From positions 1 to 63,625 of the forward strand of contig NZ_JABSOV010000015.1 of NCBI RefSeq assembly GCF_013215345.1: 63,625 nt of DNA, read 5' to 3'. The stretch's first letter is position 1. Every line of letters starts with the position of its first letter. The notes beneath the pieces are model-generated. The model made no database searches. It was not told the DNA's origin and saw only the letters and a list, made by a program, of their open reading frames with translations. Shown in pieces: positions 19,898-36,513 of the stretch. The position numbers were made by a program, and so were the translations under genes. The DNA is from Colwellia sp. GTDB taxonomy: Bacteria > Pseudomonadota > Gammaproteobacteria > Enterobacterales > Alteromonadaceae.

Positions 19898-20794
19898 TTA
19901 ATTAATTTTAGCTAAAATATCTTCAAGCTTTTCTAAATTAGCATAAGAAATAACTAATTTTCCTTTGCCTTTTTTATTGTGACTAATAGCGACTTTAGCG
20001 CCAAGTTTGTCTGCTAAGACTTGTTCCAACTCTACGGTCTCAATGGCTTTTTCAACTTTTTCTTTTATCGCAACTGGATTTTGAATCTTCTTAATTAGGC
20101 TCTCGGTTTCTCTTACCGTTAACTCTTTAGTCGCTACTATTTGTGCTGCTGACGTTTGCTCATCACCTTCCAATGCTAATAAAGCACGGGCATGGCCCAT
20201 ATCAATATCACCATTTTCCAAAAAGGTTTTTACTTCTTCGTTTAAGTTATTTAAACGCAATAAGTTACTGACTGTAGTGCGTGATTTACCAATGGCTAAA
20301 GCAACTTCCTGATGGGTTAAATCAAACTCAGTTAATAAGCGTTCTAACGCGATAGCTTCTTCCATGGCATTAAGATCTTCACGCTGAATATTCTCAATTA
20401 AGGCTATCGCTACTGCTGATTCATCCGGTACGTTTTTAATTAAACAAGGGACAATATCAAGCTGAGCCAATTTAGCGGCACGCCAGCGACGTTCACCAGC
20501 AATAATTTCATATTGATCATCTGCAACTAAACGCACAACAATTGGTTGAATAATGCCTTGTGCTTGAATCGATAATGATAATTCTTCTAAGGCCGTATCC
20601 GACATATCACGACGCGGTTGATATTTACCGGGAACAAGTGAGGTGATGGCAATTTTTTGAAACTCATTATCGCTGGTGATTACCTTTGGACTTTCTTGCG
20701 CTGTATCTGTTGGTGCAGCTGGAATCGCTGTTGATAATAAAGCATCAAGTCCGCGACCTAAGCGACTAACGCCTTTACGTTTTGCTGTACTCAT
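19898..20794 (-). CDS. parB: Chromosome-partitioning protein ParB
   Basis: A 298-residue CTP-dependent DNA clamp that loads at parS and spreads along the origin region. The N-terminal leader GRGLDALLS is the usual ParA-contact region. The CTPase/ParB motif appears as GERRWRAAKLAQLDIVPCL and IALIENIQREDLNAMEEA. The helix-turn-helix is LTHQEVALAIGKSRTTVSNLLRL, and a C-terminal dimerisation helix ends the protein. It follows parA by 13 bases. Two perfect parS sites lie about 13 kb away inside recF, so the whole segregation system is within this window. Confidence 0.96.
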   Translation of the reverse strand: MSTAKRKGVSRLGRGLDALLSTAIPAAPTDTAQESPKVITSDNEFQKIAITSLVPGKYQPRRDMSDTALEELSLSIQAQGIIQPIVVRLVADDQYEIIAGERRWRAAKLAQLDIVPCLIKNVPDESAVAIALIENIQREDLNAMEEAIALERLLTEFDLTHQEVALAIGKSRTTVSNLLRLNNLNEEVKTFLENGDIDMGHARALLALEGDEQTSAAQIVATKELTVRETESLIKKIQNPVAIKEKVEKAIETVELEQVLADKLGAKVAISHNKKGKGKLVISYANLEKLEDILAKIN

Positions 20795-20808: not shown

Positions 20809-21615
20809 CTAATTGGCGACACTGGCGGTAGCTTTCTGAGCTTTTTTCGCTGCATCATTTTTACGTAACACTTCACCAGCTAGGGCTAAATAGGCTTTAG
20901 CGCCGGTTGATGATTTATCATAATACATAGCTGGCGTTCCAAAACTCGGAGCTTCAGCTAAACGAACATTTCGAGGGATAACACTACGATAAACTTTATC
21001 ACCAAAATGGCGTTTTAATTGCTCAGATACATCATTTGCTAAACGATTACGTGGATCATACATAGTGCGAAGTATGCCCTCAATATGTAATTTATCATTC
21101 ACTACGGACGTTAACTTAGTGATGGTATCCATTAGGGCTGTTAAGCCTTCTAACGCATAGTACTCACATTGCATTGGCACTAAAACAGAGTCAGCAGCCG
21201 TCATAGCATTAACTGTCAGCATATTTAGTGATGGCGGGCAGTCAATAATAATAAAATCATAGTAGTCTTTTACTGGCGCTAGGGCGCTTTTTAATCGCTG
21301 TTCTCGGGCAAAAACACCCATCAATTTGATTTCTGCGGCAGTAACATCGGCATTGGCTGAAATTAAATGATAAAGACCTGAGGTTTCTTTAATGACAACC
21401 TGTTCAACACTCTGCTCTTCAACCAGTAATTCATAACAGGTGGCATGAACATTGTACTTATCAACACCACTGGCCATGGTGGCATTGCCTTGCGGATCTA
21501 AATCAATTAATAAAACTTTGCGTTTTGTCGCCGCCAACGAGGCAGCCAAATTAACCGCGGTTGTAGTTTTACCCACACCACCTTTTTGGTTTGCAATTGC
21601 TATTATTTTTCCCAC
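20809..21615 (-). CDS. parA: Chromosome-partitioning ATPase ParA
   Basis: A 268-residue Walker-type ATPase. The deviant Walker A box NQKGGVGKTTTAVNLA starts near residue 9, with Walker A' LIDLDPQGNATMASG and Walker B DFIIIDCPPSLNMLT. With ParB it moves newly copied origins apart along the nucleoid. It lies in the conserved order mnmG-rsmG-parA-parB, starting 25 bases after rsmG. It is a chromosomal (Soj-like) form, consistent with its position beside oriC. Terminal residues 255-268 are Ala/Lys-rich and unremarkable. Confidence 0.96.
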   Translation of the reverse strand: MGKIIAIANQKGGVGKTTTAVNLAASLAATKRKVLLIDLDPQGNATMASGVDKYNVHATCYELLVEEQSVEQVVIKETSGLYHLISANADVTAAEIKLMGVFAREQRLKSALAPVKDYYDFIIIDCPPSLNMLTVNAMTAADSVLVPMQCEYYALEGLTALMDTITKLTSVVNDKLHIEGILRTMYDPRNRLANDVSEQLKRHFGDKVYRSVIPRNVRLAEAPSFGTPAMYYDKSSTGAKAYLALAGEVLRKNDAAKKAQKATASVAN

Positions 21616-24220: not shown

Positions 24221-24437
24221 AAAATCACAATCCTGCTTGGTTAAAATTAGTTAAAGTTTTTATTTAAAAGCGCATGGCAAAATTTGCATCACTCAAAAAT
24301 TATGGAACGTATTTTAACGCTTTTTTCTCTTCATGGATACGATCAAATTCGTAAAAAGATCGGGGTGGATCTTTAATATATATAAAGAGATCTTTATAAA
24401 GATCTTATTATTATTACTTATTATGATCATCTTTTTC

Positions 24438-24446
24438 TGTGGGTAA
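24438..24446 (-). promoter_or_regulatory. DnaA box in R1 position (one mismatch)
   Basis: TGTGGGTAA reads TTACCCACA on the minus strand, one base off TTATCCACA. It sits right after the AT-rich 13-mers with the same orientation as E. coli R1. Confidence 0.65.
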
Positions 24447-24499
24447 GTACTTTTTTCTTATATTTATTAATGAGTAACACCAATGATAACCTTGTGATC

Positions 24500-24534
24500 A
24501 AGCTTTGATCAACAGGCAAATAAGCTTTGATCAA
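24500..24534 (+). repeat. Two 13-base direct repeats in oriC with 22-base period
   Basis: AAGCTTTGATCAA occurs at 24500-24512 and 24522-24534, exactly 22 bases apart (about two helical turns). Each carries a GATC. They sit just left of the first perfect DnaA box, where E. coli oriC has a related AAGCTT/GATC stretch. Confidence 0.85.
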
Positions 24535-24543
24535 AAGTGCTAG

Positions 24544-24552
24544 TTATCCACA
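24544..24552 (+). promoter_or_regulatory. Perfect DnaA box (R4-like)
   Basis: TTATCCACA, identical to the strong E. coli consensus, in the mioC-proximal half of oriC with R4 orientation. Confidence 0.9.
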
Positions 24553-24604
24553 GGTATATTAAAATCCAATTTAATCCACTGAATAATAATAGAAAAATAA
24601 CCGG

Positions 24605-24613
24605 TTATTCACT
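24605..24613 (+). promoter_or_regulatory. Weak DnaA box
   Basis: TTATTCACT, one mismatch to TTATNCACA, 3 bases before the next perfect box and in the same orientation. Confidence 0.5.
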
Positions 24614-24616
24614 GTT

Positions 24617-24625
24617 TTATCCACA
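24617..24625 (+). promoter_or_regulatory. Perfect DnaA box next to mioC
   Basis: TTATCCACA, same orientation as the R4-like box and 73 bases from it, about 50 bases from the mioC stop. Confidence 0.88.
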
Positions 24626-24678
24626 ATGGTAAAAAATAAGATCGTAAACTGTTAATAACTTATGGGTAACTGATCGTA

Positions 24679-30379: not shown

Positions 30380-31753
30380 TTGGATCATTCCCCTTGGCAA
30401 CGATGCCTCTCTGTTCTGCAAGAAGAATTGCCTGCTCAGCAATTTAGTATGTGGATCCGGCCCTTGCAGTGCGTTGTTAATGACAATGTTATGACGCTAT
30501 ATGCTCCTAATCGTTTCGTTCTTGATTGGGTGAGAGATAAATACGTCAATCGAATAAATGAACTTCTCACCATTAATGAAGCTAATAATCCATTATTGCT
30601 GCGTTTTGATGTTGGCAGTAAACCTGTTGTTAATAATAGTTCTATAGCCGCAAAAACTACTGGTAACGAAAGTCTGTTTGCTAAATCTGTTCTTGCTCCT
30701 CAAGTTGCAGAGCCTGAAAGTAATATACCTAAAAAAACCAATATTCGATTAAATTACACTTTTGATAATTTTGTTGAAGGTAAATCGAATCAACTTGCTC
30801 GTGCTGCGGCCTCGCAAGTTGCAGATAATCCTGGCACGGCCTACAACCCTTTATTTATATATGGTGGTACCGGCTTAGGTAAAACACATTTATTACATGC
30901 AGTTGGCAACGGTATTTTACTTAAAAATCCCAATGCTAAAATTGCTTATATGCATTCAGAACGTTTTGTCCAAGATATGGTTAGAGCATTACAAAATAAT
31001 GCGATGGAAAAATTTAAACAATACTACCGATCAGTTGATGCATTACTCATTGACGATATTCAATTTTTTGCTGGTAAAGAGCGTACCCAAGAAGAGTTTT
31101 TCCATACGTTTAATGCTTTACTTGAGGGAAATCAACAAGTTATTTTAACTAGTGACCGTTATCCAAAAGAAATTAATGGTGTTGATGACAGGTTGAAATC
31201 TCGTTTTGGTTGGGGCTTAACTTTAGCCATTGAACCTCCAGAGCTTGAAACGCGTGTTGCTATTTTAAAACGTAAGGCGCAAGAGAGCCAAATCAATCTA
31301 GCAGATGAAGTTGCTTTTTTCATCGCTAAACGCTTACGCTCTAATGTTCGAGAATTGGAAGGGGCATTAAATCGTGTTATTGCGAACGCTAATTTCACTG
31401 GGCGTGCTATTACTATCGATTTCGTCCGTGAAGCATTACGTGATTTATTAGCACTACAAGATAAATTAGTGACTATCGATAATATCCAACGCACTGTTGC
31501 TGAATATTATAAAATTAAAATTGCGGATCTGTTATCAAAACGACGTAATCGTTCAGTTGCTCGACCTCGCCAAATTGCCATGGCATTATCTAAGGAATTA
31601 ACTAACCATAGTTTACCTGAAATTGGTGATGCTTTTGGTGGCCGAGATCACACAACTGTTTTACATGCTTGTCGAAAAGTTAAATCTTTACGCGAAGAAA
31701 CGCATGATATTAAAGAAGATTATTCTAATTTAATCAGAACACTTTCGTCTTAA
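30380..31753 (+). CDS. dnaA: Chromosomal replication initiator DnaA
   Basis: A 457-residue AAA+ initiator. Domain I begins [21 protein letters not shown]. The AAA+ domain has Walker [14 protein letters not shown] (162-169 core) and Walker [11 protein letters not shown]. Domain IV has the DnaA-box-binding signature [15 protein letters not shown]. The start is TTG (30380), with GGAG 8 bases before it; alignment with E. coli DnaA supports this start. A weak start codon plus a DnaA box upstream suggests tight control. It heads the dnaA-dnaN-recF-gyrB cluster and lies about 5.7 kb from the predicted oriC. Confidence 0.98.
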
Positions 31754-32928: not shown

Positions 32929-34062
32929 ATGAGTGTTGCCAAACTTACAACTTATAATTTTAGGAATTTATCATCGGTAGCTATAGAACTTCACCCTAAG
33001 CTTAATTTCTTTGTTGGAGATAATGGCAGCGGTAAAAGTAGTTTACTTGAAGCTATCTTTTTTATTGGTCACGGAAAATCTTTTCGTACCACTAAGCTCG
33101 AGCATCTAGCAAGTTACGAGAGCGATAACTTTGTTGTCAGTATTAAAGATGATAATGATTTACAACTTGGTCTTAGTAAAAATATTGATTCAGGTGTTAC
33201 GTTAATAAAGATTAACGGTGAGCGACATGCTAGATTATCTGAGCTAGCCAAAAATATAGCCGTACAAATAGTTACCCCTGAAAGTTTTAAGCTTTTTTTT
33301 GGTGGACCAAAAGAACGTCGGCGCTTTATTGATTTAGGTATGTTTCACGTGAAACATGACTTTTCCAAACAGTGGCGTGAATTTAACCGAGTGCTTAAGC
33401 AGAGAAATGCTTGTTTAAGAAATCACTTAGATAATTCGACCTTAAATTACTGGACAACTATTTTTTGTCAGTTGTCGGAAAGTGTTGCCCAGATAAGATC
33501 TAAATATGTAGCAGATTTAATTGCTGAACTGCCTTATTGGTTGGCTATATTATTACCTAATATAGCTGATAAAGTGACAGTGCAATATTTACAGGGTTGG
33601 CCACAAAAAAAGATTTTAACCGAAGCTCTACATGATAGTCATGAAAGAGAACAAACTTATGGTTACACCTTATATGGTGCACATAAGTTTGATGTGAAAT
33701 TTCTTATTGCTAAACAAGCATTAGAAAGCCAACTTTCACGAGGACAACAGAAGTTGTTTTTATTGGCGTTAACATTTGCTCAAGCCAAATTGATTGCAAG
33801 AGTTAAGCGAGTAAAACCAATTTTACTTATTGATGATATAGGTGCTGAATTAGATAGTAAATCAAGGCATGCTTTATCAAATGCAACGAGTAAATTAGAT
33901 TGCCAAGTGGTAATCACGGCAATAGAGGAAAGTGTTCTACAACCTTTTTTAAATGACCTTAGTGTTATTAATAACAAGGGTAGCGACAATAATAATTATC
34001 ATATGTTTCACGTGAAACATGGTGTTATATTACCTGTGAATAATTCAGTAATGATTGAGTAG
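32929..34062 (+). CDS. recF: DNA repair/gap-processing ATPase RecF, carrying two parS sites
   Basis: A 377-residue SMC-like ATPase that loads RecA at gaps. Walker A is GDNGSGKSSLLEA (about 30-42), the signature is LSRGQQKLFLLALTFAQ, and Walker B is PILLIDDIGAELD. It is about 20 residues longer than E. coli RecF (357). The extra C-terminal tail (after DLSVINN) is low-complexity and contains MFHVKH, the same hexapeptide found at the conserved internal position near residue 140. Both are encoded by perfect 16-base parS palindromes. It lies 27 bases after dnaN, with no obvious Shine-Dalgarno. Confidence 0.96.
   Translation: MSVAKLTTYNFRNLSSVAIELHPKLNFFVGDNGSGKSSLLEAIFFIGHGKSFRTTKLEHLASYESDNFVVSIKDDNDLQLGLSKNIDSGVTLIKINGERHARLSELAKNIAVQIVTPESFKLFFGGPKERRRFIDLGMFHVKHDFSKQWREFNRVLKQRNACLRNHLDNSTLNYWTTIFCQLSESVAQIRSKYVADLIAELPYWLAILLPNIADKVTVQYLQGWPQKKILTEALHDSHEREQTYGYTLYGAHKFDVKFLIAKQALESQLSRGQQKLFLLALTFAQAKLIARVKRVKPILLIDDIGAELDSKSRHALSNATSKLDCQVVITAIEESVLQPFLNDLSVINNKGSDNNNYHMFHVKHGVILPVNNSVMIE
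33341..33356. promoter_or_regulatory. parS: parS site 1 (ParB-binding centromere site) inside recF
   Basis: TGTTTCACGTGAAACA, a perfect 16-base palindrome identical to the classical chromosomal parS consensus. It lies in the recF segment coding the conserved GMFHVKH, about 9 kb from oriC. The cognate parA-parB genes are in this window. Confidence 0.95.
34004..34019. promoter_or_regulatory. parS: parS site 2 inside the recF C-terminal extension
   Basis: A second perfect copy of TGTTTCACGTGAAACA, 663 bases from the first and in the same reading frame, so it again encodes MFHVKH. It falls in the non-conserved tail of RecF, 43 bases before the stop. Confidence 0.95.

Positions 34063-36513
<2,451 letters not shown>

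Follow-up and report, generated by a model that had tools for sequence, protein, structure and literature searches.

Two parS-like palindromes within recF of a Colwellia chromosome: a putative ParB loading pair and its distribution in the Gammaproteobacteria

The recF locus and its two palindromes

The window, i.e. the whole stretch of 63,625 nucleotides of Colwellia DNA that was analysed, carries a dnaA-dnaN-recF-gyrB cluster, with mnmG, parA and parB located about 9–13 kb upstream of recF (Table 1). The names mnmG, dnaN and mioC-like are assignments that we presume from the translations. The recF product scored 328.7 bits against the TIGR00611 profile, for which the cut-off is 172, and a sequence search with it retrieved solved RecF structures.

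Table 1. Positions of recF, the two palindromes and associated features in the window
Feature	Position	Strand	Basis
parB, expected binder of sites A and B	19898..20794	-	TIGR00180-type ParB profile match; contact residues consensus-like
parA-like partition ATPase	20809..21615	-	ORF; ParA-family matches under curated cut-offs
likely oriC, gap between mnmG and mioC-like ORFs	24221..24678	.	gene order, two DnaA boxes, near GC-skew minimum
dnaA, first gene of the dnaA-dnaN-recF-gyrB cluster	30380..31753	+	ORF and profile match
recF, host gene of sites A and B, 377 aa	32929..34062	+	TIGR00611, E 3.9e-98
parS site A, perfect palindrome	33341..33356	.	exact match; in-frame recF codons M138-H143
parS site B, perfect palindrome	34004..34019	.	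exact match; codons M359-H364, RecF C-terminal motif
gyrB	34072..36513	+	start 53 bp past the end of site B

A pattern search of the window located TGTTTCACGTGAAACA twice with 0 mismatches, at sites A and B, 663 bp apart and in one shared reading frame of recF, just as a previous sequence-only reading had described. Both sites have the form of the 16-bp parS palindrome, TGTTYCACGTGRAACN. Beyond these two the window holds no further match to TGTTTCACGTGAAACA at up to three mismatches, a setting for which 0.40 matches are expected by chance and which gave two or more in 6 of 100 shuffles. Within the assembly of 4,239,018 bases (4.24 Mb), sites A and B are the sole matches at up to two mismatches, a level at which the reversed control pattern was also found twice. 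The strict 14-mer GTTYCACGTGRAAC matches the genome twice, and its reversed control not at all.

The same genome encodes a cognate ParB whose parS-contact residues follow the consensus (Q162, G170, K171, S172, R173, N178, G201 and R204, in Caulobacter numbering). Both palindromes are situated 8.7–9.8 kb from the likely oriC and hence in the ori domain, which comes close to the distance of about 9–10 kb claimed before for the ParB loading zone. DnaA boxes are not more frequent in the window than by chance (5 found, 4.3 expected), therefore gene order and skew are the basis of the oriC call. One DnaA-box-like sequence, TTATTCACA, is found on the minus strand at 34035-34043, 16 bp past site B, in a window where such boxes are at chance level. 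A and B look like real parS sites.

Distribution of the site pair

For the family, recF was read from the window and from 60 genomes, fetched out of the other 145 with a recF match. Site A is intact and in frame in 60 of these 61 genes and site B in all of them. The one exception at A, L018 (genome G010), has TGTTCCATGTGGAACA with a CATGTG core. The contig of this gene holds a canonical motif at a distance of 9.5 kb from B, which keeps the count of the genome at two, so that two motifs per genome are not always both in recF. Genome-wide, GTTYCACGTGRAAC matched in 146 out of 147 family genomes, exactly twice in 135 and three or four times in 11, and its reversed control matched once each in 9 of the 147. 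The sole family genome without a match is 81% complete and has no recF match either.

Of 151 genomes sampled from the class, 126 had a RecF match; 124 of these are outside the family, and 120 were read. The ParB-bearing set comprises 117 recFs, including L084 and L096 despite their weaker ParB matches (E about 1e-35 to 1e-37). In this set site A is intact in 98 genes, site B in 94, both in 85 and neither in 10. The count for B was made by position and frame; by alignment columns it is 90, with some C-terminal ends misaligned. L149 was scored as lacking A owing to a late-starting reading frame, though the motif is present at 337. Among the 22 recFs with one site, five (L107, L130, L133, L136 and L143) have another motif just past the recF stop, searched for within a few hundred bases of flank, and a sixth, L163, has a further motif inside recF but out of frame, at 506. 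Such extra motifs past the stop or out of frame speak for selection at the DNA level. Two Legionella loci, L288 and L335, carry their second site in a different frame, and the recF stop codon falls within it (TGT TTC ACG TGA). Genome-wide, GTTYCACGTGRAAC matched in 134 of the 151 class genomes: exactly two matches were found in 98, one in 15, three or more in 21 and none in 17.

In the order sample GTTYCACGTGRAAC matched in 111 out of 148 genomes. Neither canonical site is present in 10 of the 20 order recFs that come with ParB, and eight of these ten have TGTTYCATGTGGAACA at the position of B; the eight belong to one two-replicon family, which we take to be Vibrio-like. Since neither site is found in these 10 of 20 nor in 10 of the 117 class recFs, recF is not an obligatory place for parS.

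A scan of named genomes for site A in recF context returned at least 118 stretches; as the scan required site A, it is uninformative on how frequent A is. Among the matches listed, the motif lies in recF in at least 106, and 86 of these 106 have a second in-frame site 603–672 bp further on; where the recF frame ends within the stretch, 85 of 101 have it. Titles among the matches listed include Pseudomonas, Xanthomonas, Stenotrophomonas, Lysobacter, Halomonas, Alcanivorax, Idiomarina and Alteromonas. No recF was found in 12 of the listed stretches, which include actinobacteria, an acidobacterium, a bin titled Rhizobium and a few bins of Burkholderiales type. The 15 Pseudomonas-titled loci among the matches listed carry the in-frame pair at a distance of 630 bp in 14 cases and of 633 bp in one. 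By the alignment of 232 RecFs and by these Pseudomonas loci, with P. aeruginosa itself known from papers only, sites A and B occupy homologous recF codons and belong to a recF-borne parS pair.

Some genomes show other arrangements. In G214, G228, G288 and G172 two parS motifs stand 29–47 bp apart elsewhere, and one or both recF sites or the RecF match are absent. G263 has twelve canonical parS motifs, compared to two in most of the class sample, and no RecF match at the threshold used.

Codon constraint, concerted changes and loss of ParB

If only the protein mattered, codons under the palindromes should follow the usage of each gene, which was taken as expectation. However, among family RecFs reading FHV[EK], the palindrome codons CAC.GTG.RAA occur in 59 of 60 at A and 61 of 61 at B, where 2.4 are expected at each. 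In the ParB-bearing class set the respective numbers are 98 of 100 (6.3 expected) and 95 of 97 (6.6 expected). Related sequences are not independent, so that the probabilities computed for this test come out too small; the size of the effect does not depend on them. When the 53 conserved columns of the family alignment are ranked, the five most codon-frozen ones are V141, H361, V362, H140 and H364, the third base of the H364 codon being just outside the 16-mer. By codon test and ranking, the sites are conserved as DNA beyond coding need, and the synonymous-site conservation brought up by the sequence-only reading is borne out. In the ParB-bearing order recFs the codons fit in 3 of 3 at A and in 10 of 19 at B; all nine misfits have CAT for CAC and come from the eight Vibrio-like genes and L230.

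Concerted changes were seen in two lineages. Sites A and B both read TGTTCCACATGGAACA in L072 (genome G170) and TGTTTCATATGAAACA in L141 (genome G243), and the two RecFs have FHM for FHV at both places. The canonical motif is absent genome-wide from G170 (91% complete) and G243 (98% complete). We compared a selected set of 30 ParBs at the contact residues named in the accessible part of PMC7383237. Departures at 170, 171, 172 or 204 are G170S in G243, K171L and R204K in G170, and S172N in G200, whose site B is TGTTTCATGTGGAACA; within the selected 30, positions 170, 171 or 204 are thus changed only in the two genomes with concerted sites. Six of the 30 differ at position 162 and none at 173, 178 or 201. 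Four Vibrio-like genomes as well as G149, G152, G246 and G409 have altered sites but no ParB change at 170–172 or 204. These two cases hint at ParB-parS co-evolution but do not prove it.

A match to the TIGR00180 ParB model alone is no proof of a chromosomal ParB, since this model also matches the E. coli control genome. In the order sample, 31 recFs were treated as coming from genomes without chromosomal ParB: that of E. coli K-12, assigned from the literature (no ParABS, according to the accessible part of PMC4368675), and those of 30 genomes, 19 without a TIGR00180 match and 11 with weak or presumed plasmid-type matches, L186 with a strong match on a separate contig being one of the 11. Neither site A nor site B is kept in any of the 31, and genome-wide the canonical motif is missing from 28 of the 30 genomes and occurs once in the other two. 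At A these proteins read, for example, CFHNEP, CFHHYP or LFHHHA, and at B MFTVEK, MFRVEQ, MFAVDQ or IFHIKS. E. coli RecF has CFHNEP at A and MFTVEK at B, the latter encoded by TGTTTACCGTGGAAAA; these are apparent relics of both sites. A mixed picture comes from three class genomes that lack a good ParB match: both sites are present in L174 (81% complete), B alone in L160 and neither in L169. Few RecFs of the ParB-less group have FHV[EK], and the codon fit there is 1 of 1 at A and 2 of 3 at B; L174 and L160 account for these fits. The ParB losses are clustered, with five state changes on the tree and only two independent pairs on supported branches; in these pairs ParB and site B change in the same direction in 0.7 and in opposite directions in 0.2 on average, too few for any significance. 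Thus, the contrast with ParB-less genomes rests on few losses.

Interpretation and comparison with known partition systems

The two palindromes are, with high probability, the ParB loading sites, that is the centromere, of this chromosome, and represent an old gammaproteobacterial pair within recF that has shaped codons and residues of the gene; a functional centromere pair in the recF of the window is very likely on the sequence data. We infer that ParB binds at A and B in Colwellia and that both serve segregation: ParB would load at the two sites and then spread, and ParA would move the oriC regions apart. The pair would be an ancient feature of the Gammaproteobacteria, two parS at two fixed places of recF with the protein reading [MVL]FHV[EK][HQP], where ParB-driven selection on the DNA would fix the codons and largely dictate the residues.

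The sequence-only reading had instead placed B in an extra C-terminal tail, which would have served as a vehicle for B, perhaps through local duplication. The RecF alignments rule the extra tail out: B is the ordinary C-terminus, the last conserved motif ([MVL]FHV[EK][HQ]) in each of the 61 family recFs read, and its place is aligned even in E. coli, which reads MFTVEKGKITD there. A recent duplication might be suspected from the identity of A and B in this genus, whose RecF slightly exceeds that of other family members in the length of the loop preceding B and by a few residues at the C-terminal end. However, both positions are old, being intact together in 60 of 61 family and 85 of 117 ParB-bearing class recFs, and the sequences flanking the two sites are identical at 20 of 50 positions on the left and 16 of 50 on the right, near the 13.8 +/- 3.2 of random recF stretches, so this origin of B is exceedingly improbable. 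The same reading had left it open whether the centromere shaped RecF or was copied into it. Shaping is favoured because of the codon test, the ParB-less recFs and the concerted core changes, and we infer that the cause runs in this direction, from centromere to protein.

It might also be argued that RecF itself requires FHV[EK][HQ] at both places, with the palindrome as a by-product of codon choice. Indeed, F persists at both places in the ParB-less recFs, mostly together with H at A and often with V at B, from which it follows that each motif is partly constrained by the protein. Yet the same residues would yield the palindrome codons in only about 2.4 of 60 genes and not in 59 to 61, ParB-less RecFs do with HN or HH at A and with TV, RV or AV at B, and parS occurs out of the recF frame in L288, L335 and L163. 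The codon test in particular disfavours such a purely protein-based constraint, which we regard as very unlikely. An equally small chance is given to the idea that ParB-bound sites mainly tune expression of dnaA-dnaN-recF-gyrB rather than segregation. An excess of ParB does lower expression of genes near parS1-4 of P. aeruginosa, gyrB included, but at native ParB level the accessible part of the same report describes no such regulation beside the intragenic parS1 and parS2 (PMC5521831). Moreover, the recF pair is the sole parS of the Colwellia assembly at up to two mismatches, and P. aeruginosa needs one of parS1-4 for segregation, any one being sufficient, as far as the available text goes (PMC4368675).

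Beyond Colwellia, we lean, with reserve, towards a class-wide reading of the centromere pair: throughout the Gammaproteobacteria the centromere by descent would be the recF pair, which would have authored two stretches of RecF; drift of ParB would bring matched residue changes at both, and loss of ParB, as in E. coli, would let the residues decay to protein fossils. If this is true, a core DNA-repair protein holds residues that are kept across a bacterial class by a non-protein code, that of the centromere. There would then be a simple sequence guide to where gammaproteobacterial centromeres are located and natural cases of ParB-parS co-evolution, and in E. coli RecF the residues would be remnants, open to testing, of a segregation system that has been lost.

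A literature search, with most subscription journals outside its scope, yielded no description of the class-wide pair or of the imprint it leaves on RecF. The distribution of parS was surveyed by Livny and colleagues in 2007, and recF sites may already be listed there.

As in other chromosomal ParABS (Spo0J/parS) systems, a ParA-like ATPase, a ParB and 16-bp parS sites are found near the likely oriC; unlike ParABS in general, both Colwellia parS are translated in frame as part of a repair gene. The Caulobacter chromosome has a hot spot tolerant of inserted parS that spans recF and gyrB, according to the accessible part of PMC5815017, and recF goes unnamed in that of PMC10419367. The closest relation is to P. 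aeruginosa, for which the following derives from the accessible parts of the respective papers. Its parS1 (TGTTCCACGTGGAACC) and parS2 (TGTTCCACGTGGAACA; PMC4368675) are inside recF (PMC5521831), where its closest parS sites are located (PMC3909081); ParB binding at parS1-4 was detected by ChIP-seq (PMC5098823), and a parS-null phenotype results when parS1-4 are mutated, those within genes by silent changes (PMC4368675). Of the two recF sites, parS1 would correspond to A and parS2 to B, and their 3' ends, AACC and AACA, resemble the common class forms of A and B. Outside recF, P. aeruginosa carries a further two strong sites, parS3 and parS4, whereas the recF pair of Colwellia is all of its parS at up to two mismatches. 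E. coli RecF is homologous and bears the apparent remnants at both places, but unlike the Colwellia protein its gene holds no intact parS. Summarizing, a recF-borne centromere pair is of a kind already known from P. aeruginosa. What deserves further attention is its descent across the class, together with the frozen codons, the changes made in concert at both sites and the E. coli residues that look like relics.
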